Shown here: one piece after another, positions 7,318 to 38,079 of the stretch
Layout of the letters: each line of letters starts with the position of its first letter
Position numbering within the stretch: the first letter of the stretch is position 1
Assembly: GCA_019233755.1 (NCBI GenBank)
Contig: JAFAMD010000025.1
Location: forward strand, 124,001-188,000
From: Acidobacteriaceae bacterium
GTDB lineage: Bacteria; Acidobacteriota; Terriglobia; Bryobacterales; Bryobacteraceae
Length of the DNA stretch: 64,000 nucleotides
Direction of reading: 5' to 3'
Translations under genes and position numbers: made by a program
The notes under the pieces: generated by a model
The model's input: the letters and a program-made list of their open reading frames with translations, nothing else
Database searches by the model: none
Told to the model about the DNA's origin: nothing

Positions 7318-7320
7318 GTA

Positions 7321-9231: not shown

Positions 9232-9241
9232 AGAACGTAGC

Positions 9242-9988: not shown

Positions 9989-9994
9989 GACTCG

Positions 9995-10501: not shown

Positions 10502-10613
10502 GCTAGGTCTCTCTTTTCCTCTCTATCAGTCAGTTATTAGTTCTTCTTGTTGACCCTCGGCCCTTCTGCCGGGAGCATATTTCACGACACACTACACACA
10601 CTCCCCCTCCGAT

Positions 10614-10665: not shown

Positions 10666-10674
10666 AACAGATAC

Positions 10675-12165: not shown

Positions 12166-12676
12166 TTGCGTCTCCCTTCGCGCCGACTTCCGACTTCAAC
12201 TTGTCGAGTTTCTCCGTGTTCCTGAGCGTCTCCTGCAAAATCTCGTCGAGCTTATCGTTGCCCTGTAGCGAGCCGCGAAGATCAGCCAGTTTCGTGCGCA
12301 GATCGAGTAGTTCCTTTAGCGGCTTGATTTGCCGCGCGACATTCGCCGGTTCGAAGTCGTCCATGCTGCGGAATCGCAGGTCCACGCCCAACTGCCCGGC
12401 CTCCGGGTCATCGCTCAACTTGTTCTCTACCTTGAACTGCAGGTGCGGCTTCATGGCCGCCAGAACGTTGTCGAAATTGTCGGGTCCAATTTCTACGAAT
12501 TTCCGATCTTTCAGGCGCGGCAGCGGCTCCTCCGGCATGCCGGTAAAATCACCGAACACGCCCATCACGAACGGTAGCTCCTTCTTCTCTATAGCGCCGC
12601 CCGTCTCCACGTCGTAAGTTATATGAACCCGGGGCGAACGCACCCGGTCTAGTTTGTGCTGTAGGCTTTCAGGCAT
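12158..12676 (-). CDS. tssB: T6SS contractile sheath small subunit TssB
   Basis: A 172-residue TssB/VipA/ImpB protein, first gene of the T6SS operon. SPRVHITYDVETGGA and LPFVMGVFGDFTG are family signatures, followed by a KFVEIGPDNFDNVLAAM segment. The ATG at 12676 is preferred over an in-frame TTG at 12682, because a GGAG site sits 8 nt before the ATG but only 2 nt before the TTG. Upstream lies a candidate promoter with a palindrome. TssB and TssC together make the contractile sheath. Confidence 0.96.
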   Translation of the reverse strand: MPESLQHKLDRVRSPRVHITYDVETGGAIEKKELPFVMGVFGDFTGMPEEPLPRLKDRKFVEIGPDNFDNVLAAMKPHLQFKVENKLSDDPEAGQLGVDLRFRSMDDFEPANVARQIKPLKELLDLRTKLADLRGSLQGNDKLDEILQETLRNTEKLDKLKSEVGAKGDANE

Positions 12677-12783
12677 AGTCAAAACTCCGTCTGCACGCAG
12701 ACTTCCTTACAGGATTCCAAGCCCGGACCTGAGGCAGGGGCACCGGATTCCGCGTTCAATCGACCTCTGGAACAGGAATGCTT

Positions 12784-17837: not shown

Positions 17838-18521
17838 ATGCGCCTCTCACTCTTATCCTTGATTCCCTTTGGAATCGCCGCGCTGGCGGGCGCTTGCCTG
17901 GTCGCGGCTGCGGAGCAGGCTGCTCAGCAGGCAGTTGAAGTCACAGTCGAACTACGCACTGGAGATACCTGGAAGCCGGTTCCTTCTCAGACCGTCTTTC
18001 ACGCGAACGACGATATTCGCTTTCGCCTGCGCTCGCAGATCCCGGGTTATCTCTACGTGCTCAACCACGAGAGCGGCGGAGACCAGAGTTGGCTCTATCC
18101 CCGCCCTGAGCAGCAAAACCCGAATCGCATAGAGGTCAATAAAACCTACCTGGTCCCCGATTCGAAGGGGTCATTCATCGTCGGTGGCGAGCCGGGATTC
18201 GACATTACGTACTGGATGATCACTCCCGAACAGATGTCCGTCGCCGGATCAGCCGATCGACCGGGCAAGTCCGTGAAGCCCAATACCCTGCTGCCGCGCT
18301 GCCGCGACGAGTTATTGAAGGCGCGCGGCGTGTGCGAAGATCCACAGGCCGGCCCGCACACACTGTCCGATTCGCCGGATTTGCCGCCCTTGTTCGCTGC
18401 GCCCGGGGGGCTGGTGTCCCGCGATTTGAAATTCCAGTCGAACCGTCCTTCGGTCCGCATCTTGACGCCTGAGCCACAGTCGGGGAGCATCATCTATGCG
18501 CTTTGGATTGCGCACAACTGA
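17838..18521 (+). CDS. Second secreted DUF4384 protein
   Basis: A 227-residue protein with an N-terminal signal peptide (about 1-25) and a DUF4384-like core: FHANDDIRFRLRSQIPGYLY, then a SWLYPRPEQQNPNRIEVNKT segment typical of the family (pattern ...G-x-x-x-x-L-x-P...). It is shorter than its upstream neighbour and lacks the linker. Its 3' end overlaps the caspase-like gene by 26 bp, so the products are probably made together and may assemble in the periplasm. Confidence 0.82.
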   Translation: MRLSLLSLIPFGIAALAGACLVAAAEQAAQQAVEVTVELRTGDTWKPVPSQTVFHANDDIRFRLRSQIPGYLYVLNHESGGDQSWLYPRPEQQNPNRIEVNKTYLVPDSKGSFIVGGEPGFDITYWMITPEQMSVAGSADRPGKSVKPNTLLPRCRDELLKARGVCEDPQAGPHTLSDSPDLPPLFAAPGGLVSRDLKFQSNRPSVRILTPEPQSGSIIYALWIAHN

Positions 18522-22667: not shown

Positions 22668-23810
22668 ATGGAGCTGGCGCGTCGGCACTTTCTGGTAAAC
22701 GTGCTCGCGGCCCCGGCACTTTCCGCCGTCGGTAAACGTCGCGTGCAAACTGTCGCTTTCAACTACGCTGGCAAGTCTTCACCGGAAGACTTGCATTTCT
22801 TCAGCCGCTTCGACGTCCTCGTAACAGGCGGCATTTTGTCGGGCGATCAGAGGCAGCTCCTGCGCTCGTCCTCAACCCGGTTGGTCTTGTATCAGTGGTC
22901 TTCTGCCTACTACCCGGGGGATGTTGTATCCGCCGAGTCATCGTGGCAGGAGAAGGTGGCCGCTCAAAGTCATGCCTGGCTTCTCGCGTCCGGTCCGGTC
23001 GGCGGGGGAGCCGCCGCGTCCGGTAAGCAGGCGCTGTGGTACGACTTCGGCAACTCCGATCTGACTTCCGCGCGTGCCGAGCACATATGTCAGGTAGTAA
23101 AGGATAACGGCTATCAGGGCGTTTTTCTCGACACGCTCGGCTTCAATGCGTTGCCGGCGGAATTGAAACAGGGATTTCAGAAGCGGCACCCCGGCGTAAA
23201 CTACGACAATTGTCAGGGCGACTTTCTTGCGAAGCTGCGCCATGAACTTGGGCCTGACCGGATCATCTTTACCAACCAGGGGTACCGGGAGCCCGATGTC
23301 TTTCTACCGCATGCCGATTTCGATCTGGTGGAGAATTCTTCGACCTTCGTAAACGACAAGGGTACAACCATGTTTCGCCCATGGTTCCAGAAGGGAGCGG
23401 AGTGGGAATCAATTCGCGTCCCGATGACGAATCTGGTGGCTCCTGCGCAGAAGCGCTTTCCGGACACACAATTTGTGCAGCTCAATTATGCTGACGGAGA
23501 TCCGCTGACGTGCCAGCGTGCCGTCCGCTACGCATTCGCCTGTGCCCGGCTCTGGAATCAGGCTGCTTTCGTTGCAACTCCGAGCATTCAGAAACCGATC
23601 CGCGACAACATATATTTCACCCGTCTGGGCGAACCCTCCACGCCCTCTTACGAAGAAGATGTTGATGCAGGCGCTGCCTGGCGTCGGTTCCAAAATGGCG
23701 CCGTTGCGGTTAATACTTCGACGAAGCCGTATCACGTCCGGGCGCTCAGAGTCGATCTGACAAATCCACCCAAGGGCTACGTCTTTTTAGGCAAACGGTC
23801 ACCCGACTAA
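22668..23810 (+). CDS. Exported glycoside-hydrolase-like protein (PelA-hydrolase/GH114-like)
   Basis: A 380-residue protein. It begins with a twin-arginine-like signal (ARRHFLVN, then a hydrophobic stretch to about 22), predicting export by Tat. The body resembles the GH114/GH166 TIM-barrel hydrolases, such as the N-terminal domain of PelA. An Asp155 lies in GVFLDTLG and a Glu222 in DLVENSS, the spacing and context of the acid pair in that family. The exact family cannot be fixed by eye; GHL15-type and GH114 are alternatives. It is transcribed towards two CE18-like deacetylases and lies beside PelF/PelG-like genes, so it plausibly trims the same exopolysaccharide in the periplasm. Confidence 0.65.
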   Translation: MELARRHFLVNVLAAPALSAVGKRRVQTVAFNYAGKSSPEDLHFFSRFDVLVTGGILSGDQRQLLRSSSTRLVLYQWSSAYYPGDVVSAESSWQEKVAAQSHAWLLASGPVGGGAAASGKQALWYDFGNSDLTSARAEHICQVVKDNGYQGVFLDTLGFNALPAELKQGFQKRHPGVNYDNCQGDFLAKLRHELGPDRIIFTNQGYREPDVFLPHADFDLVENSSTFVNDKGTTMFRPWFQKGAEWESIRVPMTNLVAPAQKRFPDTQFVQLNYADGDPLTCQRAVRYAFACARLWNQAAFVATPSIQKPIRDNIYFTRLGEPSTPSYEEDVDAGAAWRRFQNGAVAVNTSTKPYHVRALRVDLTNPPKGYVFLGKRSPD

Positions 23811-23830
23811 CCTGATCCCAATAAAACAAT

Positions 23831-23890
23831 GCGGCGGCAACCGGGTCACGGTAGCTCAATGCGAGCTCAACCATTTCCCGGCCGCCGCCG
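23831..23890. repeat. Branched inverted repeat, copy 1, after deacetylase gene 1
   Basis: GCGGCGGC-type left arm and GCCGCCGC-type right arm enclose CCGGG/CCCGG and an inner AGCTC/GAGCT pair, together a long branched hairpin. It lies between the convergent ends of the hydrolase gene and deacetylase gene 1, so it may serve as a bidirectional terminator. A second copy with a related loop lies at 26385-26446. The shared inner loop sequence is GGTAG-C/T-TC...GAGCTCAACC. Confidence 0.7.
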
Positions 23891-23923
23891 CTCCTCGGAG
23901 GTACTGTCTCGGCCCTGACTAGT

Positions 23924-26179
23924 TTATTGAGGCGACGTGACCGTAACTGACGGCGTCGTCGTTAGGTTCAGATGCGATATCTTTTGCCCGCCGTATGTTT
24001 CGCACGTTGCGCCGGTTTTGGGACAATTAACCCCCGTCATGGTGATGGTGGCTGGATTCTGAACGGTAATCGTGATGCTTCCCGTCCCGGTTGTGCTGGT
24101 CTTCGGCGTCCATTGAGCTACCACGCCGGATGCGTTCGCCGCTGCCCTGGTCTGTAGCAATGCTCCGATGTTCGCTTCGGTCAAGCTGGTTATCGGCAGA
24201 TTGCTGATCGCCTCGAATTGGCTGATCGTCGATTGGATCGTATCGATCACCAGATTGGTAGTCCCGTTGTAGATGAAGAGATTACTCTGATGGAACATGC
24301 TGGGAAATGCATAGTACCGTAGCATGTTCAGCAACAGGTTCATACTCTCGTTGGCGACGATTTGAGAGTAGGTCTGGTTGGTCGAGAAGAATGGCGGTCC
24401 CCCCGGGCCGCCAACGCGCGAGATTCCGTTTGGTCCGTAGAAATAGTTATACTCGTCGGGTTCTGACCCCGCCGCACCTGTCGCGCTCGTGTCGGTGTTA
24501 TAGAAGATGTTCGTCGCATAGCGCGGAATCTCATAAACCGCCGGATTGATCGCGTTCGGAATACCGGTATTTGCGCTCGGCGGCTTTTGTCCGGGCTGTG
24601 AAGCGTCGGTGACTACGTACTTGAGGCCGTTGGCTACTGCCGCTGCAATGAAGTTTGGATTCCCGAGACCAGAGATATTCGGTGTCACCATGCTGGCGGC
24701 GTCAAAAGGATTGAGACCGACATCGTTATTGGCCGTGTTTACATTTTGCGTGATTTCGGTAGTTGCTTGCGCCTGGGTTGCCTCATTGCAAACGCCGCTA
24801 TTCGGTACCGGGTCGTAGCAGTCTAAATTTTCGTGGTTGTAGGTGTGACTCACCCAGAAGAAGCTGCTTGAGATGTTCGACGCCGTGTCCACCAGCGTAT
24901 CGTTCGGCGGCTCGTAACCGCCGGTGCTCACCGTGCCGATGCCGTTGAACGCCAGCGTGAGTTGGAAGTTGGCAGTCTGCGCTGCGTTGTTCAAATTCGT
25001 CTCCCAGTTGGCGGTTGTCTGCAGGTCGGAGCCGCTTATCCGAACAACTGGACACTGCCCCGCGTTGTCGAACGTGGGGTCTAATTGAAAGCCGGAAGGC
25101 ACGCAGGATTGTGGAATGGCTGCATCGAAGAGATCGTCATCGATGAAGAGATCGTCCACTTCGGGGGACAGATAGATCTTTCTTCCGCCCACAAACATCC
25201 CTTTCGTTACCCAGTTAAACAATCCGTAGTTGAGCGCCAGCGAATGCAGCAAAAACGGGTTGTTGTCCATGGTCAAAGCGAGGTACTGTTGTCCGGTAGC
25301 CGCAGTATGAATAGCGCCTACCGTGTACGTCGTCCCGTTGTAGGTGGCGGATAACACCGGCACCGTAGTCTCGCCGGTCGCGGCTTCCGTCGTCGCGAAA
25401 TACATGTATGCGTTTTCTACCGGAATGCTGGCGGTGGGCTGCAAATACGAGAATGTGGTCTTTGCCAGCGCTTGCCCGGACGTCAGGGTGACGTTTACTG
25501 GAGAGGTAGTGGTCGTGCTCACCGCAGCCCCCGCAAAGGTAAGCCCGTAGCGAGGTTGGGGAAACGTGTAATAAGCGAGCGTTCGCACGCCGAACGCTGC
25601 AGTGAAACTGTCCATCGCCGCCCAGTCCGCCGTGCTGAACGTGCTCTGGCAGGTACCGGACGAGTTGCAATAGGCGAGATTTCCGATTGTCAACACAATT
25701 CCGTAGTAATTTGCGTTCGTCGGGCTGGTGTTAAAAGTGGGAAGCGGACACGGTGTCGACGATAACCGGCATACCGATTTATAGGAATCATAGGGAATGC
25801 CTATCTGGTCGAGGAACGCTGTTATGGCCGCGTAGGTCGGCTCAGTTCCATCTACTGCGATGACCAGCAGTTTCATCGTCTGCGGATCACTCAAGTGCTC
25901 TCGTGCATGTCTCCATCCCTCTTTGCGCGGAGCGAAAAATCTTGGCAACGGCTCGCTCCGCATATGCTCTCGATGAGGGTCGGGATCCTGATCGTCTCCC
26001 TGACCATCCGGATCGTGTCCTCTGTCGTGTCCGTGTCCTCTGTCGTCCCAATACCCTCCAGGATTTGCTGGCGCCCGCGCCGATGCTGGCCGTGCTTGGC
26101 AGAAAAACAATGCAGTTGCCAGTCCCACAGAAGCATAGAGATATTTCCATGGTCTGGTTAGCAGAAACAATCGAATCAT
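23924..26179 (-). CDS. Exported CE18-like polysaccharide deacetylase, paralogue 1
   Basis: A 751-residue exported protein. Residues 1-36 form a signal peptide. Residues 43-76 are a striking His/Asp/Gly-rich segment (phrases such as DDRGHGHDRGHD). The globular part starts near 95. The deacetylase-type metal motifs appear as VDDLFIDDDL (Asp342, Asp343) and SHTYNHENLDC (His445, His449). This matches the pattern of CE18 enzymes such as PelA's C-terminal domain and Agd3: Asp-Asp, then H-x3-H. A strong AAGGAGGT ribosome site precedes the ATG. It is the last minus-strand gene of the polysaccharide locus and a tandem duplicate of the next gene. Substrate, probably GalNAc- or GlcNAc-rich glycan, is inferred from context. 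Confidence 0.72.
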   Translation of the reverse strand: MIRLFLLTRPWKYLYASVGLATALFFCQARPASARAPANPGGYWDDRGHGHDRGHDPDGQGDDQDPDPHREHMRSEPLPRFFAPRKEGWRHAREHLSDPQTMKLLVIAVDGTEPTYAAITAFLDQIGIPYDSYKSVCRLSSTPCPLPTFNTSPTNANYYGIVLTIGNLAYCNSSGTCQSTFSTADWAAMDSFTAAFGVRTLAYYTFPQPRYGLTFAGAAVSTTTTSPVNVTLTSGQALAKTTFSYLQPTASIPVENAYMYFATTEAATGETTVPVLSATYNGTTYTVGAIHTAATGQQYLALTMDNNPFLLHSLALNYGLFNWVTKGMFVGGRKIYLSPEVDDLFIDDDLFDAAIPQSCVPSGFQLDPTFDNAGQCPVVRISGSDLQTTANWETNLNNAAQTANFQLTLAFNGIGTVSTGGYEPPNDTLVDTASNISSSFFWVSHTYNHENLDCYDPVPNSGVCNEATQAQATTEITQNVNTANNDVGLNPFDAASMVTPNISGLGNPNFIAAAVANGLKYVVTDASQPGQKPPSANTGIPNAINPAVYEIPRYATNIFYNTDTSATGAAGSEPDEYNYFYGPNGISRVGGPGGPPFFSTNQTYSQIVANESMNLLLNMLRYYAFPSMFHQSNLFIYNGTTNLVIDTIQSTISQFEAISNLPITSLTEANIGALLQTRAAANASGVVAQWTPKTSTTGTGSITITVQNPATITMTGVNCPKTGATCETYGGQKISHLNLTTTPSVTVTSPQ

Positions 26180-26488
26180 TCAGTACCTCCTTTTTTCTGA
26201 CCGTCTAAATGGCGCAGGATTATCGGGCCGAAATACGACTTCCTGAAACCCAGCGAATAACTATAAGTCCCCCAACCGAGCTGCCGATTCGCATACACAG
26301 CGCAACCGGAACATCCCACTGACATCTTTCAATTAATCGCTCCCTGGAGTTACCATTACTCTTCAGAACAACGTCAATAGAAGTACGGCGGCGGCCTGCT
26401 GGCGGTAGTTCGCTATGAGCTCAACCGCTCATTTGGCCGCCGCCGTTTATTAGCTGTCAGAACTACGATCTCTAAGTCCTCTGACAAC
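26180..26488. other. 309-bp intergenic between the two deacetylase genes
   Basis: It holds the ribosome site of deacetylase gene 1 (AAGGAGGT) and a segment matching the region upstream of the second copy. Both contain a GGCGCAGGAT element and, in diverged form, a CTTCCTGAAACCCAGCGAA-like stretch, which is evidence that the duplication included promoter DNA. The branched hairpin of the 26385-26446 entry also lies here. No further gene was found. Confidence 0.7.
26385..26446. repeat. Branched inverted repeat, copy 2, after deacetylase gene 2
   Basis: ACGGCGGCGGCC (26385-26396) and GGCCGCCGCCGT (26435-26446) are perfect 12-nt inverted arms around a 38-nt loop. Inside, GCGGT pairs with ACCGC. 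The loop contains GGCGGTAG on the plus strand, and the inner sequence matches the loop of copy 1 at 23831-23890. The position, just past deacetylase gene 2, suggests a terminator or mRNA-stabilising structure duplicated with the gene. Confidence 0.75.
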
Positions 26489-28729
26489 TTATTGGGGTGA
26501 GATAAGAGTGGCCGGAGCACTGCCTGTTACACTCACATGCACAAGCGTCTGTCCGCCATATGTTTCGCACGTTGCTCCGCTCGTGGGGCAATTTAGCCCG
26601 GTCAGCGTGATGGTGGCCGGATTCTGAACCGTAACTGTGACGCTCCCCGTCGCCGCGCCAGTGCCATTCGGCCCGGCCGGCGTCCATTGAGCTACCACGC
26701 CGGATGCGTTGGTAGCCGCCCTGGTTTGTAGCAGCGTTGCGATGCTGCCTTCGTTCAGGCTTGCTATCGGAAGATTGCTGATCGCCTCAAATTGATTGAT
26801 CGTGGCTTGGATCGTGTCGATCACCAAAGAGCTGGTCCCGTTGTAGATCGAGAGATTGCTTTGATGGAACATGCTCGGAAATGCGTAATACCGCAGCATG
26901 TTCATCAACAGGTTCATGCTCTCGCTGGCGATGATTTGAGAGTAGGTCTGGTTGGTCGTGAAAAACGGTGGTCCGCCCGGACCGCCGACGCGCGAGATTC
27001 CGTTCGGCCCGTAGAAGTAGTTGTACTCATCGGGCTCGGATCCCGCCGCGCCTGACGTGCCCGTGTCGGTGTTGTAGAAAATGTTCGTCGCAAAGCGAGG
27101 AACCTCAAAAACGGCGGGATTTATGGCGTTTGGAATCCCCGTATTTGCGCTTGGGGGTGTCTGCCCCGGTTGCGACGCATCCGAGACCACATTCTTGAGA
27201 CCATTAGCCACCGCCGCTGCAATGAAATTCGGATTCCCAAGGCCTGACACGTTCGGCGTCACCATGCTGGCGCTGTCGAAAGCCGAGCCCAGTCGCAGGC
27301 TGCCGCTATTAGCGGTTGCTACGTTCTGCGTGATCTCATACGCGGCCTGTGCCTGGGTCGCCGGCGTGCAAACGCCGCTGTTCGGCACCGGATTGTAGCA
27401 GTCAAAGTTTTCGTGGTCGTACGTGTGACTCACCCAAAAGAAGTTTTGGGAAAGAGTCTTTGCTGCAGGCACCAGAGTGTCATTTCTGGGCTGGTATCCG
27501 CCGCTTCTCACCGTTCCAATGCCGTTGAACGCCAGTGTTAGTTTGACACCGGCAGTTTGTGGGTTGGCGTGTAGAGTATTTTGCCAGGTGGAGTGTGCCA
27601 GCAGGTCGGACCCAAGAATCCGGACGGTCGGACACTGACCTGAGTTGTCAAACGTCGGATCTGTCTGGAAGCCGGAAGGCACGCAGGATTGTGGAATAGC
27701 CGCATCGAAGAGATCGTCATCGATGAAAAGATCATCCACTTCGGGCGAAAGATAGATCTTTCTTCCTCCCACAAACATGCCTTTCGTTACCCAATTAAAC
27801 AGTCCGTAGTTGAACGCCAGCGAATGCAGCAGAAACGGATTGTTGTCCATAGTCAGCGCGAGATACTGCTGTCCGGTAGCTGCGGTATGAATAGCGCCGA
27901 CGGTGTAACTGGTCCCGTTGTAATTCGCTGATAATACCGGAATCGTCGTTTCGCCGGTCGCCGCTTCGGTTGTCGCGAAATACATGTACGCGTTTTCTAC
28001 CGGGATGGTTGCGGTGGGTTGCAGATAGGAGAACGTGCTCGTCGCCAATGATTGCCCGGACGCCAGCGTGACGTTCACCGGAGCGGTACTCGTCGGGCTC
28101 GCGGATACGCCTGCATAGGTGAGCCCGTAGCGCGCTTCCGGCCAGGCATAATAGGCGAGCGTCCGCACGCCGAAGGCTGCAGTGAAATTGTCCATTGCCG
28201 CCCAATCCGCCGTGCTGAACGTGCTCTGACACACGCCGGATGAATTGCAATAGGCAAGATTTCCGATGCTCAATACGATCCCGTAGTAATTTGCGTTCGT
28301 TGGGCTGGTATTGAATGTAGGAAGTGGACATGGAGTCGACGATAGCCGGCACACCGATAAGTACGAGTCGTACGGGATCCCGATCTGATCCAGGAAGGCC
28401 TTTATCGCCGAATACGTAGGCTCCGTTCCATCGACACCGATGACTAACAGTTTCATCGTCTGCGGATCACTAAGGTGCTCACGTGCATGCTTCCATCCGC
28501 CTTTACGCGGAGTAAGGATCCTAGACAACGGGCCGGTCCTCATGTGCTGGCGATGAGGATTGGGGTCCGGACCCTCATCATCTGATCCATCGCTGTGGTG
28601 CCCGTTGCCACGGTCCCCTGGCTCCCGTGCTGACACCGGGCTTGTTTGCCAGAACAACAGGATAGTTGCCAGTCCAGCGGCGGCAAAAAGTCGCCTCCAA
28701 AGATGAGCTGGCAAGAACAGTCGACTCAT
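26489..28729 (-). CDS. Exported CE18-like polysaccharide deacetylase, paralogue 2
   Basis: A 746-residue protein very similar along its whole length to its neighbour at 23924-26179. It shares long identical blocks, e.g. AAIPQSCVPSGFQ and TMDNNPFLLHSLA, and the same metal motifs VDDLFIDDDL and SHTYDHENFDC. The signal peptide is followed by a shorter Asp/His-rich segment (GDRGNGHHSDGSDDEGPD). The catalytic Asp and His residues are kept, with Tyr-Asp replacing Tyr-Asn between the two His. A strong GAGGAGGG ribosome site precedes the ATG. The two genes are tandem paralogues; whether both are active on one polymer or on different acetyl patterns is unknown. Confidence 0.72.
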   Translation of the reverse strand: MSRLFLPAHLWRRLFAAAGLATILLFWQTSPVSAREPGDRGNGHHSDGSDDEGPDPNPHRQHMRTGPLSRILTPRKGGWKHAREHLSDPQTMKLLVIGVDGTEPTYSAIKAFLDQIGIPYDSYLSVCRLSSTPCPLPTFNTSPTNANYYGIVLSIGNLAYCNSSGVCQSTFSTADWAAMDNFTAAFGVRTLAYYAWPEARYGLTYAGVSASPTSTAPVNVTLASGQSLATSTFSYLQPTATIPVENAYMYFATTEAATGETTIPVLSANYNGTSYTVGAIHTAATGQQYLALTMDNNPFLLHSLAFNYGLFNWVTKGMFVGGRKIYLSPEVDDLFIDDDLFDAAIPQSCVPSGFQTDPTFDNSGQCPTVRILGSDLLAHSTWQNTLHANPQTAGVKLTLAFNGIGTVRSGGYQPRNDTLVPAAKTLSQNFFWVSHTYDHENFDCYNPVPNSGVCTPATQAQAAYEITQNVATANSGSLRLGSAFDSASMVTPNVSGLGNPNFIAAAVANGLKNVVSDASQPGQTPPSANTGIPNAINPAVFEVPRFATNIFYNTDTGTSGAAGSEPDEYNYFYGPNGISRVGGPGGPPFFTTNQTYSQIIASESMNLLMNMLRYYAFPSMFHQSNLSIYNGTSSLVIDTIQATINQFEAISNLPIASLNEGSIATLLQTRAATNASGVVAQWTPAGPNGTGAATGSVTVTVQNPATITLTGLNCPTSGATCETYGGQTLVHVSVTGSAPATLISPQ

Positions 28730-28897
28730 TCATTCCCTCCTCTTTTAGTGGCCTCAGAACGGCGCAGGATCATTCGGTCGCGATGCGTAAGCACACCGCG
28801 CTTTCTGAAATCCAGCGAAACAAGTGAACCCCCAGCGAATTGAAAGAACCTGTGGTGAACCTCGACAGTCTCCACTCGATGAGCTGGCTAAAGAGAC

Positions 28898-30409
28898 TCA
28901 GCTGGCGCCGCCGGCGCGAATCAAGTGATACACGACGAGGTTGTCGTCCTGATAGAACAGGAAAAGATTTTGATGTGTTTTCGCATACGCGTCCAATAGT
29001 GCAGCGGCGCGGTATTCAAGCGATGCTCTCCCGATTGGAGAGCCATACAGATAAGCCGGCCAGTCCACACTATCTGCTGGGGCGTACCGCCAGACGGCCG
29101 TCCGCAATCCGGGAAGCGAGCCGAGTGCAAGCGGGCGCCGCTCGACGAAGAAAAACACATCGGGACACTCATAAGGAAACTTGAATGCCGGGTTTGCAAC
29201 CTGATCCGGCGTAAACGTCGAAATGAACTCGCTCAGGTCCAGATGCCAACCCCGCCCGTATGTGAACGGAAGTTCCTGGAATGGCGAGATCACCAGCCAC
29301 TCCTTCGGGCGAAACTCATGCGCGATTCGTTCGCAGCTCCGGGCGGCGGATTCATATTCGAAAACTCTGCTTGCCGGTTTTTCCGTGTGCCATAGAACCA
29401 CCAATCCCGCGACACTCACGGTGCCGGCGAGAGCAGCAACTCCCTGCAGCACACGGCTGCGACCCCATTGCGACAACTGGGCCGCACCGGCAACCGCCAC
29501 GCAAACCGCCAAGGCCGGCCACTCCCCGGGAGCGATCATCACAGCAGTCAAACCGGCCAGTAAACTGCTTTTCCGGTCCTCCACCCAGAGTGCAGCCGCG
29601 GCAAGCCAGTACACCATTGCTAGCGACTGGGGAAGCAGCTCTGTATTGCGGTAAGCGGCCGCAACAGCAATTGCCATGCAGACGATAAACGCGGCCAATA
29701 ATGCAACCCGGCTGCGCCACAAGCGCCAAACGCAAAAGACGAAAAGCAACGCGAAAAGTGTGGCCCAGATGGGACCGGTAAACCGGATCACGGCGGCCGA
29801 GTTCAATCCCGAGAACGAGACCAAAGGGGCAAGAAGCGCCACCGAGGCATCCGGCGTCCACCGTTGTCCTGACGTCAAAGCCGAGAGTGAAACCGCCCGG
29901 GTGTAAGTATCCGAATAGTGGTAATGAACCTGCGAAAGGGCATTCGTTGCGTTCAGAACAAGTACGGCGAGCCCTGCAGTAAGGAGCAGCTTGCTGCGCC
30001 AGGATATGTTTATTCGGGCAAATGCGCCCGGCGAAGGCGCCTCACCCTGAGTGGGCCGCTCGTCTTCAAGCAGCGCAACCAGTGGGCGCCACAGACCGCG
30101 CGCCGCGTCACCGCGCGAAATCGACCGCAGGCGGTACGCATTTAACCCTCCCGCTACCGCCCAGACGATACACAAGGAGACGAGCAAGCCAGGGCGGCAC
30201 AACCGGAGTTTACCCAGAACCAGGCAAAGAATCTCTGCGGCAAACGATGCGCGCACAAATGCTCGCACCAGCCGCTGAACCGTTTCACTCGTCGACGAAC
30301 CCCACCCCGCAACGATTCCCTGCCCCTCTGCCAGCAGCGGAGCCGCGACAAACACGAGCGCAAAGGCGAGTAGCACCCGAGCCAATTCAAGCAACGAATC
30401 TAAGTTCAT
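28898..30409 (-). CDS. Polytopic membrane protein of the polysaccharide locus
   Basis: A 503-residue protein with many hydrophobic segments in its first three quarters (for example RVLLAFALVFVAAPLLAE, then LLLTAGLAVLVL and WATLFALLFVFCVW) and a soluble C-terminal domain from about 370. The layout recalls GT-C-type or PMT-like membrane glycosyltransferases, but no family motif was found. The start overlaps the pelG-like stop by 4 nt (ATGA), so it is translationally coupled to pelG/pelF. By position it might replace PelE or act on the nascent polymer; this is inference. A 168-nt gap separates it from deacetylase gene 2. Confidence 0.6.
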   Translation of the reverse strand: MNLDSLLELARVLLAFALVFVAAPLLAEGQGIVAGWGSSTSETVQRLVRAFVRASFAAEILCLVLGKLRLCRPGLLVSLCIVWAVAGGLNAYRLRSISRGDAARGLWRPLVALLEDERPTQGEAPSPGAFARINISWRSKLLLTAGLAVLVLNATNALSQVHYHYSDTYTRAVSLSALTSGQRWTPDASVALLAPLVSFSGLNSAAVIRFTGPIWATLFALLFVFCVWRLWRSRVALLAAFIVCMAIAVAAAYRNTELLPQSLAMVYWLAAAALWVEDRKSSLLAGLTAVMIAPGEWPALAVCVAVAGAAQLSQWGRSRVLQGVAALAGTVSVAGLVVLWHTEKPASRVFEYESAARSCERIAHEFRPKEWLVISPFQELPFTYGRGWHLDLSEFISTFTPDQVANPAFKFPYECPDVFFFVERRPLALGSLPGLRTAVWRYAPADSVDWPAYLYGSPIGRASLEYRAAALLDAYAKTHQNLFLFYQDDNLVVYHLIRAGGAS

Positions 30410-31923
30410 ACGCTGGCCGCAAAGTAGTGATAGTCGAAATTGTTAAACAACCGTCTGCAGAACCAGCCCGATATGCAGACGAGCGCCGCGCTTCCGATAT
30501 CGAATCCCACAATCGCGAGATCGTAGGAAAACAATCGCGAAAGCACATAGCCTGCGCAGATATCGGACAGCAGCGCCCACGCCACCGAGGTTAGTACGTA
30601 GGTAGGCCGCGAAAGTGCGAATAGCAACGCGATGTTCCAGAGCCCGACGGCCAGTAGCGGTATTCCGATCAAACCCAATAGAACGACGCGAAACAGCATC
30701 ATGGCTTCAAGCGCGTGAATCTGTTTGACCGTGAATACTACGCCAACAGACGAAATTACAAAAAGAATCCCAAACACAGCGATTTGCTGGTTATAAAACG
30801 ACTTGATCGCATCCACCATTTTTCGCCTGGCGGTAATCTGAAAATGCATCTCCTTCTGGGTAACTATGCGATAGAACCTGACTAAACCGATATGTACCCA
30901 CCCCACCTGCACGATGAATGCAAACAGGCACATATCAAGCGATGTTTCGTAATCGCCTCGGAACTGAAAAGGTAGCGACGAGGTTTCTGTAGCAGCGCTC
31001 CAGGCAATCATCCGGTCTGCGAAGAGATAAGCGTAATAGAGCAGGCCGTATATAAAGTATGGCCACAACATGTAAACCAGCCGGCCGGGCGAGGGCAGTT
31101 GCGATAGGCAGGCTGATCCGCGCCGTAGCTTCCGGAATCGGAACGCCGTTGAGGCAATGCAAATGCCCGTGGCGGCAAAGATACCCGTTATCTGGGACGG
31201 CAACAGCGGTGCGCGCAGCACCAGGTGCAGCACGATAACCAGAGCTGTGCCAAGCGCGGTAGCGAGCGCCACCAGTAGTTCGCCGTCCAGTACATACAGG
31301 ATTCCGCTTATCAGCAGGTAAGCACCGATACCTACATGAAACGCTGCACACCAGCTCAGAATTGTGAAGGGCAGCCATCCAAAATATAAGTTTGCGGCAA
31401 ACCCGGCGGCGACACAGGCAAGCAGCGCAAAACACCCTGCCTTCATAAACAACCAGCAGACACTCGAGCACAGGCCCCAGTCGCGGTTTTCCTTATAGAA
31501 ATGGGCTTGCCGGCCGATGATTTGAAGGAAGCCTCCGGTTACCGCGAAGCTTGCAACCGTCGCCATCGCAATCGCCGCTGCCTGATTCGCGGACATGCTC
31601 CCGCCCCAAAGGGAGACTTTGAAGAAAAGCACCGCCAGGCAACAGCACAGCAGCGGAAGCGCAAAGGCGACGCCCTTCAGATAACCTCGAACGGTTCCCG
31701 GCTGCGTGACCGTTGTCGGTGCGATCGCCTTCTGTTCCTGAGCCACGGGAAGGTATTCTTCCGCCATCTCCCAGATGTTCCGAAACCCGTAGCGCGAGCG
31801 GCACACGTTCCCCGTAAGGCCGTCGGCCTCCATCCGGACCACCAGGTCGCGTACATCAAGGGGGGGAGCCCAGCTTGATTCGCTAGACGGCGGCAGTATG
31901 CATTTGGGCAGTGCGTCTTCCAT
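30406..31923 (-). CDS. pelG: PelG-like membrane transporter
   Basis: A 505-residue membrane protein of the PelG type, which works with PelF in polymer export across the inner membrane. The hallmark is YGLLYYAYLFADRMIAWSA (about 295-315), which matches the PelG core, followed by a FRGDYETSLDMCL segment. The C-terminus FDYHYFAASV resembles the typical DY-x-YYA ending. About twelve hydrophobic helices fit the family. The first ~75 residues form a hydrophilic extension not usual in PelG, and they overlap the pelF end by 41 bp. No good ribosome site is seen for the far upstream ATG; an internal ATG at 31833 is an alternative start. Confidence 0.8.
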   Translation of the reverse strand: MEDALPKCILPPSSESSWAPPLDVRDLVVRMEADGLTGNVCRSRYGFRNIWEMAEEYLPVAQEQKAIAPTTVTQPGTVRGYLKGVAFALPLLCCCLAVLFFKVSLWGGSMSANQAAAIAMATVASFAVTGGFLQIIGRQAHFYKENRDWGLCSSVCWLFMKAGCFALLACVAAGFAANLYFGWLPFTILSWCAAFHVGIGAYLLISGILYVLDGELLVALATALGTALVIVLHLVLRAPLLPSQITGIFAATGICIASTAFRFRKLRRGSACLSQLPSPGRLVYMLWPYFIYGLLYYAYLFADRMIAWSAATETSSLPFQFRGDYETSLDMCLFAFIVQVGWVHIGLVRFYRIVTQKEMHFQITARRKMVDAIKSFYNQQIAVFGILFVISSVGVVFTVKQIHALEAMMLFRVVLLGLIGIPLLAVGLWNIALLFALSRPTYVLTSVAWALLSDICAGYVLSRLFSYDLAIVGFDIGSAALVCISGWFCRRLFNNFDYHYFAASV

Positions 31924-33376
31924 GGAGTAAAGAAGTGTAAAGGTCGGAAAATCGACCTACTGCTTTTTCGGTTGTATAGAGCGAGTACGCGCGCTGAAGG
32001 GCCGACCTGGCCAGCGATTTTCGGTACTCGAACGCCGCATCCTCACCTTCGAGCAGCGTTAACAAGGCACGCGCCAGACTGTCGGGATCTGCCGGCGGCA
32101 CGACAATGCCAGTACCTCCCAACATCTCGGAAATGTTGCCCACGTCCGTGCTGACGATGGGCCGCTCACAGAACATCGCCTCAATGATGCTGTAAGGCAT
32201 GCCCTCCGATATGCTCGGCAGGCAGAAGATGTCTGCGTCTGACAACGCTTCCGCGGCATCCTTCGTCGCGCCGAATTCCACCGCTGTCTTCAATCCGTGC
32301 TCGGCGATGATGTTAAGGCAGCCCTCATAATATTCCCGGTCGACAACTTCACCTAGAATGCGGAACAGCACCGCCGGGACGCGTGCCCGGACAATGGCTG
32401 CCGCTCGCAACAGAAATTCGATTCCCTTTAGGTGGTACACCCGCGCCAGCGTCAGAACGACGGGCCTCTCGTTCGGTGGCCGCGGTTTCGGACGGAAGCG
32501 GTCTGCATCTGTTCCGTTTGGAGTGATGACAATTTTCGCTTCCTGGGCGCCCAGCTTGATTTGCCATCCGCGATTGAAATTTCCAAGCGCCGTTACCCGG
32601 TCGGCAAAGTGATAGTTCATCCTTACTACGGCCTCATGGAAAGCCAGAAGAAACCGCCGGCACGCTTCACTGTAGCCTGACCGCATCAGCGACAGGTACA
32701 ACTCACGTAGATAGATACCGTGTTCGGTAACTATAAGAGGGCTGCCGTACTGCAGCTTGTTAAGAACCCCGGGTACGCACGCTAAGCCGGCCATTGAGCT
32801 GTGAGTTATATCGGCGTTAGGAAGCGTTCCTGCCAACAGGCCGCAGAAACGCTGCATCCAGCGCATGCATGTAGTCGCTTCATGTATGGTCAGGTACGAG
32901 CCGGCGAGCGACGCGGTTCTGCAAAGCTGTAGAAATACTTCCCAGGCTTCGGGGGAAGTCATCGTCTTCTTGTAATCGAATTGCTGGAAATACAAATGCA
33001 AAGCGAGCAAGGCGTTTCCCAGTCTTTGCGGACGCCTGCCTCCTTCGAGAATGCAGTTCAACGCATCCGCGAAACCCGTCAGGAATTCATTGCGCACCGC
33101 TTCGGGAGTCGTCCGGGCTTTGCGTTGGTACGTCTCCGACAACGAGCCGCCTTGACAACCTGGTTCCTCCGTTCCCCAGAGCGCGACTGAGTTGATCCCC
33201 ATGATATTGGAATGAATCGGAAATATTGGCTTCTTGTTCGGCGCATGAGTAATGGCAAACAGCCGGAAATCGACATCCGGTAAGCCGCGGACCAACTGGT
33301 CACACCAGACGCTCACGCCGCCTGTGTAGTACGGATAGGTTCCCTCCGTGCACATTAAAACCGAAGTGCGGGCCAT
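31883..33376 (-). CDS. pelF: PelF-like glycosyltransferase (GT4, DUF3492)
   Basis: A 497-residue cytoplasmic glycosyltransferase. The N-terminal TEGTYPYYTGG (10-20) and the central VTEHGIYLRE (216-225) are strong PelF signatures (DUF3492). The C-terminal GT4 domain has the EGMPYSIIE motif with the E-x7-E acid pair (Glu391/Glu399). PelF polymerises UDP-sugars for the Pel polysaccharide; the sugar here is not known. A GGAGG site lies 4 nt before the ATG. It overlaps the HlyD gene by 22 bp and pelG by 41 bp, so the whole block reads as one operon. No PelD, PelE or PelB homologue is visible next to it. Confidence 0.88.
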   Translation of the reverse strand: MARTSVLMCTEGTYPYYTGGVSVWCDQLVRGLPDVDFRLFAITHAPNKKPIFPIHSNIMGINSVALWGTEEPGCQGGSLSETYQRKARTTPEAVRNEFLTGFADALNCILEGGRRPQRLGNALLALHLYFQQFDYKKTMTSPEAWEVFLQLCRTASLAGSYLTIHEATTCMRWMQRFCGLLAGTLPNADITHSSMAGLACVPGVLNKLQYGSPLIVTEHGIYLRELYLSLMRSGYSEACRRFLLAFHEAVVRMNYHFADRVTALGNFNRGWQIKLGAQEAKIVITPNGTDADRFRPKPRPPNERPVVLTLARVYHLKGIEFLLRAAAIVRARVPAVLFRILGEVVDREYYEGCLNIIAEHGLKTAVEFGATKDAAEALSDADIFCLPSISEGMPYSIIEAMFCERPIVSTDVGNISEMLGGTGIVVPPADPDSLARALLTLLEGEDAAFEYRKSLARSALQRAYSLYTTEKAVGRFSDLYTSLLHGRRTAQMHTAAV

Positions 33377-34488
33377 TTCGCCTCCGTGCGAAACTCCACT
33401 TCACCGCCCAACCCGGCCAGAATCGACGATGGAGCCGGATTCGGCACTGTTACTCGAATCGTGTAAGCCGAGTTGTCTTGTGAAGGAGCGAGCGTTATAT
33501 CGGAGATGACAGCGGGGAGCAACGTTGGCGGTTCAGTGGGCACGTGAACCGTGACGCTGTCTCCACGTTGAAAATTACGGGCTAACCCCGCCCCTACCGG
33601 AACGTCGAAATCCAGTTGATCTAACTGCGCGATTTGAACCAGCGGAATTCCCGACGGAATCAGGTCACCAACGCTCACCATTGTCTTGATAACGGTGCCG
33701 GAAACCGTTGAGGTAATCTTCTGTGCGTCGCGCCGCGCGCTCGCTATGCGCAATGCTTCCGCCGCTTCACGCAGATCCATATTCACTTCCATGGACGGAG
33801 ACGCAAAGCCATGCGTATTTTGAACTCTTGCCGCCGCCACATGTACTTCTTCCTCCAGGCGCGATAAGTGTTCGCGCTCGGCTCGCAGGTTCCGTAGTTC
33901 TTGGTCCTGAATCCTCTTCGCCTGCTCTAGCTCGGCATCCGTAGCGAGTTGCTGCGAAGCCAGTCGTTGCATCTCGTCGAACTTCGCGGTCGCATCATCG
34001 TAGGCACGCTGAGCCGGCTCGAGAGAGTATCCCGCTAGCCGCTCCTTCGCGGCATTGTAAGCACGCATGGCCTCCTGCGATTCAGCGTTGGTATTTCCCG
34101 CCGGATCAGATCCGGTAGTCCGCGACCGCCATCGCTGCTGTACATCTTCGTACCGGACTTTCGCACGTTCGTACTCGAGTTCGAACTCCGGATCATCAAG
34201 TGTAAGAATCGCATCGCCGGCCTTCACCTTCATTCCGGCCTTCACGTTCATGGCGACTACTTGGCCTGGAAACTCAGAGCTGATTGTCGCCATGACGTGG
34301 GGTCGGATGCTGGCGGGCAGAACTATGTTTGTCTGGTGTTGTATCTTTTCCGATACTGTTCGAGATACCGAGCCCGACAATGCCAGGGAAATTCCGCAGA
34401 TAACAATAAGTCCCGCGGCGATCATGCTCAGTCGCCTTGTGCGTGAATACTTAGTTCTTACAGGCGTGGATTCGGTTACTTCTAACAT
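33355..34488 (-). CDS. HlyD-type periplasmic adaptor (membrane fusion protein)
   Basis: A 377-residue inner-membrane anchored adaptor. One membrane helix lies at about 20-42 (MIAAGLIVICGISLALSG). A biotinyl-lipoyl half (VAMNVKAGMKVKAGDAIL) is followed by a long coiled-coil hairpin (about 105-245), and the second lipoyl half and barrel (STVSGTVIKTMVSVGDLIPSG) come next. Such adaptors bridge an inner-membrane exporter to an outer-membrane TolC-type channel. It lies between the TolC-like gene (47-nt gap) and pelF (22-bp overlap). No ABC or RND pump is present in the window, so its partner may be the PelG-like protein. An AAGGA site precedes the ATG. Confidence 0.85.
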   Translation of the reverse strand: MLEVTESTPVRTKYSRTRRLSMIAAGLIVICGISLALSGSVSRTVSEKIQHQTNIVLPASIRPHVMATISSEFPGQVVAMNVKAGMKVKAGDAILTLDDPEFELEYERAKVRYEDVQQRWRSRTTGSDPAGNTNAESQEAMRAYNAAKERLAGYSLEPAQRAYDDATAKFDEMQRLASQQLATDAELEQAKRIQDQELRNLRAEREHLSRLEEEVHVAAARVQNTHGFASPSMEVNMDLREAAEALRIASARRDAQKITSTVSGTVIKTMVSVGDLIPSGIPLVQIAQLDQLDFDVPVGAGLARNFQRGDSVTVHVPTEPPTLLPAVISDITLAPSQDNSAYTIRVTVPNPAPSSILAGLGGEVEFRTEAKWPALRF

Positions 34489-34535
34489 GGGTAGTCCTTC
34501 TCATTCAGTTCAATACACGCACTTGCAGCTTCCAC

Positions 34536-36359
34536 TCATGTCGTGGGGTGCAGGACAAACGCAATCGTGTGATCGCACGGGATGTTCTTGCCATTCAGCT
34601 TCGCAGGCGTAAACGTCCATTGCCTTGCGGCCGCAATTGCCTCCGCCGTGAGGGCGCCGCTTACGTGCTCGCTTGCGGTCCGCACCTGCGCGTCAGTGAC
34701 GCGTCCGTGTTCATCGATTCGAACTTGTATGTCGATCTCGGTTACCCCATAGGTTGGGATGCCATGAGTGTGCCCGAACGACGGCAGCGTTCGACTCAAG
34801 GGCTGGGGTGGAATATAAGAAGGCGCAGGCGTCGGCGGAATCGAACCAGGGGGCGTAGTGACCCTGGGCAAACCGGCGCCCGTTATAGGAGCTGAGCCGC
34901 GGCTTGAGTTCACCCATACTGCTGGCCTCGGGAGTAGCTTCTCACTCATCAGGGAAGCCGGAACAAAGCCGGGCGTTATCGTCGGCACTGTCACAGCCGG
35001 AGGCGGTGCCAGGAGCGCGCTCTCGACATGACTCGGGCCGGCGTGATCTGTTCGAGCCAGCAGACTCGATTTTTCCAGCTTCTGCGGGTCGCACAAAGCC
35101 AACACCATGAACGCGCTCTGCTGCCACTCAAGTTCAACACGGGCCGATGCGGCTTCGGCGCGCACTGCATCACGCGATGCCCATAGTTCGTCGTTTGTCG
35201 ATTGAAGGCCGGCTGTTGCGCGTTGAATCGTTAACTGCTCCAGTTCGTCGGCGAGTGTTTGCCTCTTCTGGGCCACCCGCAGCCGCGCGGCCGAAAGGAT
35301 TGCCCGCTGTTTGTTGTCCTCGATATCGCGACGCACTACGAGCTTCAGATCATCCGCATCGTGCTGCAAATTCTTGAACCTTGCCTGCAAATACGCGTTG
35401 GTTGCCTCCACATCTCCGATGTGTCGCAGCGAAATGTAAAAGGCCGTATCCAGGTGCAGGACGTTTCCCCCTGCCAGGTAAGGGGTTACACCTTGCGGCA
35501 ACCCTTTCTCTGAATTCCATAGGTACGAATAGCCGGCCGACAGCGATTCGAAATGAAATTTATGCTTTGCCGGCGCTACCGAAAGCTCGCCGAGATGTTC
35601 GCTTATAGTCTTGAAGTCTTCATTCGAACTGAGCGCCGCGTTGAGCAACTGCTCGGACTCCGGAAGGTCCTCGCCCACTGCGATCTGCCTCAGATCGTCG
35701 GTGGCGATCTCCACTTTGTTGGCCATGCCGTCGCGGCCCACAAGCCGTACCAGAGCCAACTTCGCGGCGTCTGTCTGGGCCCTCGCCTCCACGCAGTCGC
35801 TTTCGAGCGCCGTGAGATCCTGCTCGAAGCGAACTACGTCTAATTTTGTGATCCGGTTGAAGGAAACCAACGTTTGTACCTTCTGGCGATCTGCGATTCT
35901 TTTTCCCCAGAGATCGCAGTTGTGCTTTCTCAGATCCTGCGCTTCAGCCAGGTTGAAGAACTGGCTCGTAACGTTTACTTCGGCGTTGACCCGATTACGA
36001 GCATGGCCTATCTCTGCCTGAATCAGGCCCATTCGCGCCAGTTCTACGTTTACGGGAGAAGGCGCGGTTCGCTTGTTGACGGAAAAGCTGCCCCCGATGC
36101 TTGTCGCCAGCAGCAACGGATTGGAGAAGCTCCATATGCTGAACTGCGGTCGGAATTCGACTCGCGTCTTGTTCAGCGCTTCGAGCATGGCCAGTTCGAG
36201 CCGCGCGTTTTGAACTGAGGTATCGTCCATATCCACCTTGGCAACCGCCATGCGCAACGCGTCGCTCAGATGCCATGCGCCGTTAGGATCGGCGGATTTG
36301 ACGATCGCCGCAAATAAAAGTACGACAGTAATCGCCAGGAGCGTTCGTAGTCGTAACAT
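34536..36359 (-). CDS. TolC-like outer-membrane channel fused to TonB C-terminal domain
   Basis: A 607-residue protein with a signal peptide (1-22). Residues about 30-425 carry the TolC/OEP coiled-coil layout (repeats with LELAMLEALNKTRVEF and later RAILSAARLRVAQKRQTLAD). A Pro-rich linker (about 430-515) leads to a C-terminal domain (about 520-607), TYGVTEIDIQVRIDEHGRVT, then AAARQWTFTPAKLNGKNIP, which is a TonB_C type fold. The TolC part would form the outer-membrane duct; the TonB_C part may bind peptidoglycan or a receptor. The fusion is unusual. A GGAGG site lies 5 nt upstream of the ATG. It is followed by the HlyD-type gene. Confidence 0.78.
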   Translation of the reverse strand: MLRLRTLLAITVVLLFAAIVKSADPNGAWHLSDALRMAVAKVDMDDTSVQNARLELAMLEALNKTRVEFRPQFSIWSFSNPLLLATSIGGSFSVNKRTAPSPVNVELARMGLIQAEIGHARNRVNAEVNVTSQFFNLAEAQDLRKHNCDLWGKRIADRQKVQTLVSFNRITKLDVVRFEQDLTALESDCVEARAQTDAAKLALVRLVGRDGMANKVEIATDDLRQIAVGEDLPESEQLLNAALSSNEDFKTISEHLGELSVAPAKHKFHFESLSAGYSYLWNSEKGLPQGVTPYLAGGNVLHLDTAFYISLRHIGDVEATNAYLQARFKNLQHDADDLKLVVRRDIEDNKQRAILSAARLRVAQKRQTLADELEQLTIQRATAGLQSTNDELWASRDAVRAEAASARVELEWQQSAFMVLALCDPQKLEKSSLLARTDHAGPSHVESALLAPPPAVTVPTITPGFVPASLMSEKLLPRPAVWVNSSRGSAPITGAGLPRVTTPPGSIPPTPAPSYIPPQPLSRTLPSFGHTHGIPTYGVTEIDIQVRIDEHGRVTDAQVRTASEHVSGALTAEAIAAARQWTFTPAKLNGKNIPCDHTIAFVLHPTT

Positions 36360-36433
36360 AGATCCTCCGTGTCCAGACGAAATCGTTGTTACCCTTTAAC
36401 AACAGCCCTACAACTGACCGTGCGTCTTTCCGC

Positions 36434-37447
36434 TCAAGCAAGAAGCTTGCGGAGTATCAGATGGCTGGCTGTCATCCGAAAACCTTTGTTCTCCAGAACC
36501 CGGTTCGCGTCCAGGTTACGGAGTTGCGAATACCCCTCTACCAGGTCGACATTCCGCTCACGAAACCATTCCAAGGCCGACGTCAGTGCACATGTCGCCG
36601 CCCCTTCTCTCCGCCTCTCGGGCCTGCAACCGGCCGTTTCGATCTTTCCGTAACGGATGCCAAGCAGCGACGATGTCGCGGCATCGATCTGGCATGTTGC
36701 GTATGCCACAATCTGATTGGCATTTTCAGCTACCACAATCGCGTCTGCGCACGCGCAGGCCGCCCGGGCGCACCTGCACTTCAGCTTTGACGCGAGCTCG
36801 CTCCCAAGTACGGAACTGTCCCCAAACCGCTCATCGATAGCGCAGTCCCCTGCAATCGCCAGAATGTCCGGCAAATCGGCTTCGGTCGAAACCCGGCTCT
36901 CAAATCGGTCGTTCACTCGATGAGCTTCCGTACTGTGTGGTGAAATTCCAAACACCAGGTTCCCTTCGACAATCCGGAAGCCTGCTTCCTCTAACCCGTG
37001 CAGAGCCGCCAGGTCCTCCGGATCTGTCTGTGCAGTAAGGCAGCGAATACCATTTGCATGCAACCCGTTGAATACGCCGTCAAGCAATTCGGCGACGATT
37101 GCGCGGCTCTGAACATAGTCCCCATCCGTGAGCATGAATTCCAGGCGGCCAACCGCGAAGCCGAATACTTCACTTTCTTCGGGAAGTTTGCGCCAACATG
37201 CCAGCCCGACCATGACCCCGCTCCTGCGCACGACAACCAGAAACGAATCCCGGCGGCTGAGGAGTGTGCTCGCTCTATTCACCGCCAGCCGTTGAACGGC
37301 TGCGGGAGAAACGAACCTAGAATACGAACGACACAACTCCGGTAATCGCTGGAGTAAGCTCAGGGGTATCCGTTCTATGGAAACGATTGACAGAGGCGGG
37401 TCCGGCATTATATCTGCGGCGTCCATTATTTCCAAGCCTCGAATCAT
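36434..37447 (-). CDS. GNAT-type acetyltransferase, two GNAT-like halves
   Basis: About 337 residues from the ATG at 37447. An open frame extends to 37816, but that part overlaps the NusG-like gene in another frame and encodes basic low-complexity residues, so it is rejected. Two GNAT-like repeats seem present: one around DFLVVVRRSGVMVGLACW-type residues and a second with IVVAENANQIVAYATCQID (about 240-260) and RRREGAATCALTSALEWFRE (about 280-300), which fits the acetyl-CoA motif A region. It lies between the NusG paralogue and the TolC-like gene. A role in acetyl transfer to sugars, proteins or lipids is unproven. The start codon is not certain; alternatives are GTG at 37486 and ATG at 37426. 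Confidence 0.6.
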   Translation of the reverse strand: MIRGLEIMDAADIMPDPPLSIVSIERIPLSLLQRLPELCRSYSRFVSPAAVQRLAVNRASTLLSRRDSFLVVVRRSGVMVGLACWRKLPEESEVFGFAVGRLEFMLTDGDYVQSRAIVAELLDGVFNGLHANGIRCLTAQTDPEDLAALHGLEEAGFRIVEGNLVFGISPHSTEAHRVNDRFESRVSTEADLPDILAIAGDCAIDERFGDSSVLGSELASKLKCRCARAACACADAIVVAENANQIVAYATCQIDAATSSLLGIRYGKIETAGCRPERRREGAATCALTSALEWFRERNVDLVEGYSQLRNLDANRVLENKGFRMTASHLILRKLLA

Positions 37448-37497
37448 AAATGCTAATGTCCTATGGAAACTCTCTTCGAAACACACATGTTCAGGCC

Positions 37498-38079
37498 TTA
37501 GGTCGCCTGCACTGACGTTCGATCGATTTCTAACATCACAGATCGTTGTAGAATCTCGATCGACAGAATCAATTCCATACTCTTGTTCTTCGTATCCCTT
37601 ATCTTTCCGGCGATACCCGCCAGAGGTCCTTCGGCAATGCGAACGACGTCGCCGACACGCACATAGGGACAGGGGTTTAACTCGATTCGTTTCGCTGTCG
37701 CGATTTGTATTGCCCGTATCTCTTCTTCTTCGACGGGCAAGGGCTTTCCCGCGCTGTGAATCCATCCGAGGACGGATGGAATCCGCGACGGCACGGTGGA
37801 CCGGGAAGGATCGCAATACAAAAAGACATAGCCTGGAAAAAGCGGGAGTTGAAATTTCCGCAGCCGTTGTCCATAAGTGTGGCGTCTGGTGAACAATGGC
37901 AAAAAGGTGATGTGTCCCAGGTTCTCAAGCATCCGTGACACGCTTTTCTCGTGTCTGGGCCGCACACGCAGCACAAACCATCGGTTCCTAACCCGGCTCG
38001 CCGATATATCTGAAACTTCTGAATACGAACCGATCAGGATTGTTGCCGATTGACGGTGTTCTATCGGAATACTTGACAT
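37498..38079 (-). CDS. Specialised NusG paralogue (RfaH/UpxY/LoaP type antiterminator)
   Basis: A 193-residue protein with a NusG N-terminal domain (about 30-130; NRWFVLRVRPRHEKSVSRML, FLPLFTRRHTYGQRLRKFQL and PLFPGYVFLY) and a C-terminal KOW-like domain (about 140-190; RVGDVVRIAEGPLAGIAGKI). The length and the LPLFPGYVFLY phrase match polysaccharide-linked paralogues rather than housekeeping NusG, which would be flanked by secE and rplK. Such proteins travel with RNA polymerase and let it read through long polysaccharide operons. It is the first gene of the downstream locus, and its leader contains two nested hairpins and an ops-like motif. Confidence 0.88.
   Translation of the reverse strand: MSSIPIEHRQSATILIGSYSEVSDISASRVRNRWFVLRVRPRHEKSVSRMLENLGHITFLPLFTRRHTYGQRLRKFQLPLFPGYVFLYCDPSRSTVPSRIPSVLGWIHSAGKPLPVEEEEIRAIQIATAKRIELNPCPYVRVGDVVRIAEGPLAGIAGKIRDTKNKSMELILSIEILQRSVMLEIDRTSVQAT

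Follow-up and report, generated by a model that had tools for sequence, protein, structure and literature searches.

The closest described systems are the Pel system of Pseudomonas aeruginosa (PelABCDEFG), the Gram-positive Pel system of Bacillus cereus (pelDEADAFG) and the GAG cluster of Aspergillus. The deacetylase of PelA belongs to the carbohydrate-esterase family CE21 (PMC12022489), and the deacetylase of B. cereus Pel to the family CE26 (PMC13254593). Bacterial agd3 operons are also already known; in the passages of Bamford et al. 2020 (PMC7229062) concerned with them, Actinobacteria, Deinococcus-Thermus and Proteobacteria are named, while Acidobacteriota are not. For Acidobacteria, a description of an operon with the architecture presented here was not found in the open-access literature on pel, CE18, PelF and GAG.

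The analysed stretch of DNA, 64,000 nucleotides long and hereafter called the window, belongs to Acidobacteriaceae bacterium GCA_019233755.1 (contig JAFAMD010000025.1, 124,001–188,000, forward strand; genome completeness 92.7%). The locus occupies window positions 22668–38079, where every ORF named in an earlier note on this DNA was located. On the minus strand, from right to left, lie genes for a NusG paralog, a GNAT-containing ORF, an OEP-like protein, a HlyD-type adaptor, PelF, a PelG-like exporter, a membrane protein and two Agd3-like deacetylases; the hydrolase gene is on the plus strand, opposite all other genes of the locus. By coordinates, the genes for HlyD and PelF overlap by 22 bases, those for PelF and the PelG-like protein by 41 bases, and those for the PelG-like protein and the membrane protein by 4 bases, a pattern seen in operons with translational coupling. 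Scans of the locus for promoters and terminators yielded no more than shuffled sequence. We regard the locus, with moderate confidence, as a Pel/GAG-type cationic exopolysaccharide system.

The upstream gene of the UpxY/RfaH-type NusG paralog (37498–38079, minus strand; NF033644 88.9 bits, below the cut-off of 100) possibly encodes an operon antiterminator, its membership in the operon being uncertain; the paralog was not found in the sister operons. Outside the locus, reading of the window revealed a type VI secretion-like cluster at 1–12682 (VgrG-, ClpV-, TssF/G-, Hcp- and TssB/C-like sequences). A Ser/Thr kinase fused with a sulfatase-modifying-factor domain is encoded at 20712–22526, and beside it, at 18496–20718, there is a gene whose product reads as caspase-like with TPR repeats.

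The gene of the glycosyltransferase PelF (family GT4; 31883–33376, minus strand) was identified with 183.6 bits against NF038011 (NCBIfam cut-off 100) and 176.3 bits against DUF3492, which confirms the PelF-like gene proposed in the earlier note. It is the only DUF3492 gene detected in the genome; neither a second PelF nor a classical PelG was found there. The next gene (30406–31923, minus strand) encodes a protein with a MOP/MATE fold, the predicted structure of which (pLDDT 88) matches MATE, MurJ and Wzx proteins at probability 1.00. It had been called PelG-like and clear by motif; the motif is recognisable, but the wording was too strong, as the protein has no match to Pfam PelG (PF16933). 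One member of its family exceeds the PelG cut-off, and a weak profile link connects the family to a canonical PelG (28% probability), with GLLYNAAIWVDKWVMW aligned with the motif reported before. The window exporter is accordingly named PelG-like and not PelG, while the wider family, represented in Acidobacteriota, Paenibacillus, Sulfobacillus, other Bacillota, Nitrospirae and Ignavibacteriae, shades into PelG.

The product of the gene at 28898–30409 (minus strand), previously left as a membrane protein of unknown family, was predicted to have a GT-C-like structure (pLDDT 80), the leading structural neighbours in VIA-align being the GT-C enzymes OST, PMT, PglB, Emb and ArnT (Z up to 10.5). Since a Foldseek search with the model gave nothing significant, the GT-C fold is likely, though not settled. 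The profile of the protein family matches PMT and PTPS_related proteins (E 8.5e-9 for a PMT protein), and a PDB profile search with the family gave no relevant match. Among 396 Acidobacteriota genomes, the eight with strong matches to the GT-C-like family are exactly the eight with strong matches to the PelG-like family (Fisher 7e-17, by a test that ignores phylogeny and shared ancestry), and in three of these eight the two genes sit on different contigs. The possibility that PelG and the membrane protein are fused in locus L034 (genome G226) was rejected, since blastp matches within the long 989-aa frame are confined to the C-terminal part of the membrane protein.

In active GT-C enzymes, an acidic residue is expected in the first external loop. 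Such a residue occurs in 18 of 20 diverse members of the GT-C-like family; among 12 close relatives, only 5 carry it at that column, so catalysis should not be assumed for the window protein. Most of the residues invariant among the 12 close relatives lie within the C-terminal domain (E353, R357, W388 and H389 are invariant there), and the protein might act in coupling without being a catalyst. These features bear on another PelF-based reading, with a product other than Pel or GAG, in which the GT-C-like protein would attach a further kind of sugar, donated by a polyprenyl phosphate, and the resulting branched heteropolymer would be the substrate of the hydrolase and the deacetylases. The GT-C-like fold and the first-loop acid of the diverse members agree with it, as do GT2 genes that adjoin the PelG or GT-C-like gene in loci L022 and L030 and occur also in loci L024 and L026, all of which resemble polyprenyl-phosphate sugar synthases by reading. 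Within the bacterial family to which the window belongs, however, this residue is not conserved, and the window contains no homolog of the GT2 of L022 or L030; we consider a branched heteropolymer unlikely.

Both deacetylases of the locus, copy 2 (23924–26179, minus strand; Agd3_CE 76.9 bits, CBM87 63.8 bits) and copy 1 (26489–28729, minus strand; Agd3_CE 78.5 bits, CBM87 58.9 bits), lie well over the cut-offs for Agd3_CE and CBM87_Agd3; copy 1 matches Agd3 6nwz with E 2.5e-13, and the four CE18 catalytic motifs were matched in both copies. The two CE18-like enzymes of the earlier note are therefore true Agd3-type deacetylases with the CBM87 and CE18 domains. The copies share 77% identity. Similar GC-rich hairpin-like stretches follow both of them (23810–23924 and 26179–26489) and similar sequence precedes both, which suggests a tandem duplication including the flanks.

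The proposal that PelA had been split into two genes did not hold. A CE18 enzyme as a detached half of PelA is ruled out by the difference in carbohydrate-esterase family: PelA has CE21 and B. cereus Pel has CE26, while the window has CE18 with CBM87 (Agd3 family), so that by family assignment the deacetylases appear as an analogous replacement of the PelA deacetylase, a substitution rather than a split. In another acidobacterial genome (G282), the canonical-looking pel locus L047 (511–3683) carries the hydrolase (GH114, 76 bits) and the deacetylase, the latter assigned by position, as separate genes and may be described as a true split of PelA functions. In the locus L019 of a Paenibacillus relative, a polysaccharide deacetylase gene (13687–14616; Polysacc_deac_1 and DUF3473) follows the gene of the membrane protein, and the deacetylase module therefore appears to vary among lineages.

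The glycoside hydrolase gene (22668–23810, plus strand) has a GHL15 score of 26.7 bits, slightly under the cut-off of 27; a sister gene (L076:14129–15313) reaches 40.2 bits. Residues D155 and E222 are invariant across the alignment of the hydrolase family and correspond to the pairs D160/E223 of PelAH, D189/E247 of Ega3 and D156/E225 of TmGH191 (PMC12054363). The top PDB match of the family profile is the PelA hydrolase 5tcb with E 1.3e-13, a value that drops to E 0.0024 without the two most PelA-like members. The enzyme is thus assigned, from profile and alignment, as a relative of GHL15 and the PelA hydrolase with D155/E222 as the candidate catalytic pair. Of the earlier designation as a GH114/PelA-like hydrolase, the relationship to PelA and the residue pair were upheld, but by Pfam score the protein is nearer to GHL15 than to GH114; GH114 (PF03537) was not found in the genome of the window, though it is present in sister loci. 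The deacetylases and the hydrolase could instead target another amino-sugar polymer.

The presence of a HlyD-type periplasmic adaptor (33355–34488, minus strand) was corroborated by 96.5 bits to TIGR01730 and 50.9 bits to HlyD_3. The adjacent gene (34536–36359, minus strand) encodes the TolC/OEP-like outer-membrane protein with a C-terminal TonB_C domain (37.6 bits; residues 543–603), the latter missing in the four closest homologs aligned. Taken alone, the window protein has a weak OEP score (14.7 bits; cut-off 22), and a comparison with the OEPs of loci L029 and L030 failed; the TolC/OEP identity is therefore based on closer homologs at the sister loci, which score 26.6–62.9 bits against the same cut-off and align with the window protein. 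On this basis, the TolC-like protein with TonB_C claimed before was accepted. The weak score and the failure of Pfam PelG to match the exporter are counted against the Pel/GAG reading, and so are the scarcity of the first-loop acid among close relatives of the GT-C-like protein, the departure of the window locus from the gene order of the family and the genome's lack of a GH114 match. With one acidobacterial query and no positive control, no PelD, the c-di-GMP receptor of the Pel system, was found in the genome, and one PelB query sequence, likewise with no positive control, gave only two weak partial matches.

A Pfam scan of the proteins of the window operon revealed no ABC, RND or MFS pump; therefore, if HlyD and the OEP-like protein serve the polymer, the MOP-fold exporter would be their inner-membrane partner. 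TolC-type ducts usually serve small molecules or proteins, and a physical coupling of HlyD to a MOP exporter is hypothetical. Both points favour a HlyD/TolC pair that acts as a separate efflux pump sharing the operon, with the polymer leaving through another, unrecognised outer-membrane protein; this seems improbable to us, given that the pair is kept in the sister operons and that no ABC, RND or MFS pump gene was recognised beside it in the window. HlyD was detected in the loci of Acidobacteriota, and the Nitrospirae locus L022 has a partial frame at its edge and an OEP gene just before pelF; no HlyD gene was detected in the loci of Paenibacillus, Sulfobacillus and other Bacillota, as expected if the pair serves an outer-membrane route. 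A more daring idea, which we hold to be doubtful although slightly less so than a separate pump, is that the MOP-fold exporter drives a tripartite HlyD-TolC machine from the inner membrane, its coupling partner being a GT-C-fold protein whose catalysis is lost or on the way to being lost. To our knowledge, a pump with a MOP-fold engine, HlyD-TolC and a GT-C-fold coupling partner is not represented among the described families.

The distribution of the gene set was analysed in 200 genomes of the window's family and in a phylum sample of 396 Acidobacteriota genomes, the sister loci being reached via the OEP-like homologs. Agd3 was found in 14 of the 200 genomes of the family, and ten genomes besides the window contain Agd3, HlyD, PelF and the PelG-like gene in one locus (L076, L077, L099, L102–L107 and L110), so the search for the gene set in other acidobacteria was successful. 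The OEP gene lies between them in nine of these ten loci and was undetected in L106; opposite-strand hydrolases of the GH114 and/or GHL15 type accompany seven of the ten. In the family, the genes are usually arranged as hydrolases followed, on the other strand, by Agd3, OEP, HlyD, PelF, PelG and the GT-C-like protein; the window departs from this in the position of agd3, its duplication and the missing GH114. The description of the system as rearranged is thus valid locally, but otherwise the family has a regular order. As a whole, a Pel-type system of synthesis and export in acidobacteria found support, without the split of PelA, and its HlyD/TolC route is supported by synteny conserved among the sister genomes.

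Outside the window's family, L034 contains PelF, HlyD, Agd3, the PelG-like protein and the membrane protein together, along with a weak Spherulin4 match, and L029 and L030 contain HlyD, OEP, PelF, the PelG-like protein and the membrane protein. On a contig of a groundwater acidobacterium (L006, 2149–4368), the PelG-like gene is followed by that of a 739-aa protein, alpha-galactosidase-like (GH36 type) by reading. As to counterparts of Sph3, Uge3 and Gtb3 from the GAG cluster, L034 has the weak Spherulin4 match mentioned above, and a single query with an epimerase had no match in the window.

In genome G029, one contig carries HlyD, PelF, PelG and the membrane protein, and another carries hydrolases, Agd3, OEP and a second Agd3. 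This separation of two Agd3 copies and hydrolases from PelF, together with the few loci in which Agd3 stands alone (L098, L108, L109 and L111), would suit enzymes for the modification or breakdown of a galactosamine polymer from another organism, e.g., fungal GAG, which adjoin an unrelated capsule-type export operon by accident. In ten other genomes, however, Agd3 is located directly within the PelF operon, and both of the genomes with Agd3 in the phylum sample (2 of 396) carry a PelG-like gene beside it. Accidental adjacency is therefore very unlikely, more so than the other alternatives considered.

For the Pel/GAG-type system, the sugar, its linkage and the order of steps were inferred from the biochemistry of PelF, Agd3 and the PelA hydrolase in the cited papers. 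Cytoplasmic PelF would polymerise a GalNAc-type chain, which would cross the inner membrane via the PelG-like MOP protein, with the GT-C-like protein as a putative regular partner at this membrane. The HlyD adaptor and the TolC-like channel, possibly as a complex with the MOP protein, would conduct the chain across the periplasm and the outer membrane, replacing PelB and PelC. The chain would be de-N-acetylated by the Agd3-type CE18 enzymes, and the PelA-hydrolase-like enzyme would trim the polymer. The product is probably sticky and positively charged, like Pseudomonas Pel and Aspergillus GAG. With a fungal deacetylase family and the Pel polymerase family in one operon, the locus offers a bacterial equivalent of the fungal GAG cluster that is open to experiment, and it is relevant to the proposal that the GAG genes came from bacteria. 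The locus further suggests a way through the outer membrane that dispenses with PelB and PelC, and it draws attention to a family of membrane proteins, as yet unnamed, whose members accompany PelF and the PelG-like exporter from phylum to phylum.

The locus resembles the Pel system of P. aeruginosa in having PelF, an exporter of the MOP type, a glycosidase akin to the PelA hydrolase and de-N-acetylation; unlike that system, the window has a CE18/CBM87 deacetylase in place of CE21, a GT-C-like partner, and HlyD with a TolC-like protein, and neither PelD nor PelB was recognised with single queries. PelF, a PelG-type exporter and a stand-alone deacetylase are shared with B. cereus, whereas its deacetylase is of CE26/CBM114 (PMC13254593), PelD and PelE are present and there is no outer-membrane part. 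Common to the locus and the Aspergillus GAG cluster are an Agd3 deacetylase (CE18/CBM87) beside glycosidases and, in the sister bacterial loci, GH114 (Ega3 family); the window, in contrast, is a bacterial operon with PelF, PelG-like, HlyD and TolC-like genes and with no GH114 in its genome. The bacterial operons described in the relevant passages of Bamford et al. (PMC7229062) likewise combine agd3 with a glycosyltransferase of the cytoplasm and a membrane protein with multiple spans, often with GH114 in addition, and those passages assign Pel-like outer-membrane components to the Gram-negative operons, while the window has HlyD/TolC-like proteins and the GT-C-like protein. The fungal-type finishing enzyme and the proposed outer-membrane route differ from the known Pel systems, and, relative to the agd3 operons in those passages, the export arrangement of known component families appears to be new.
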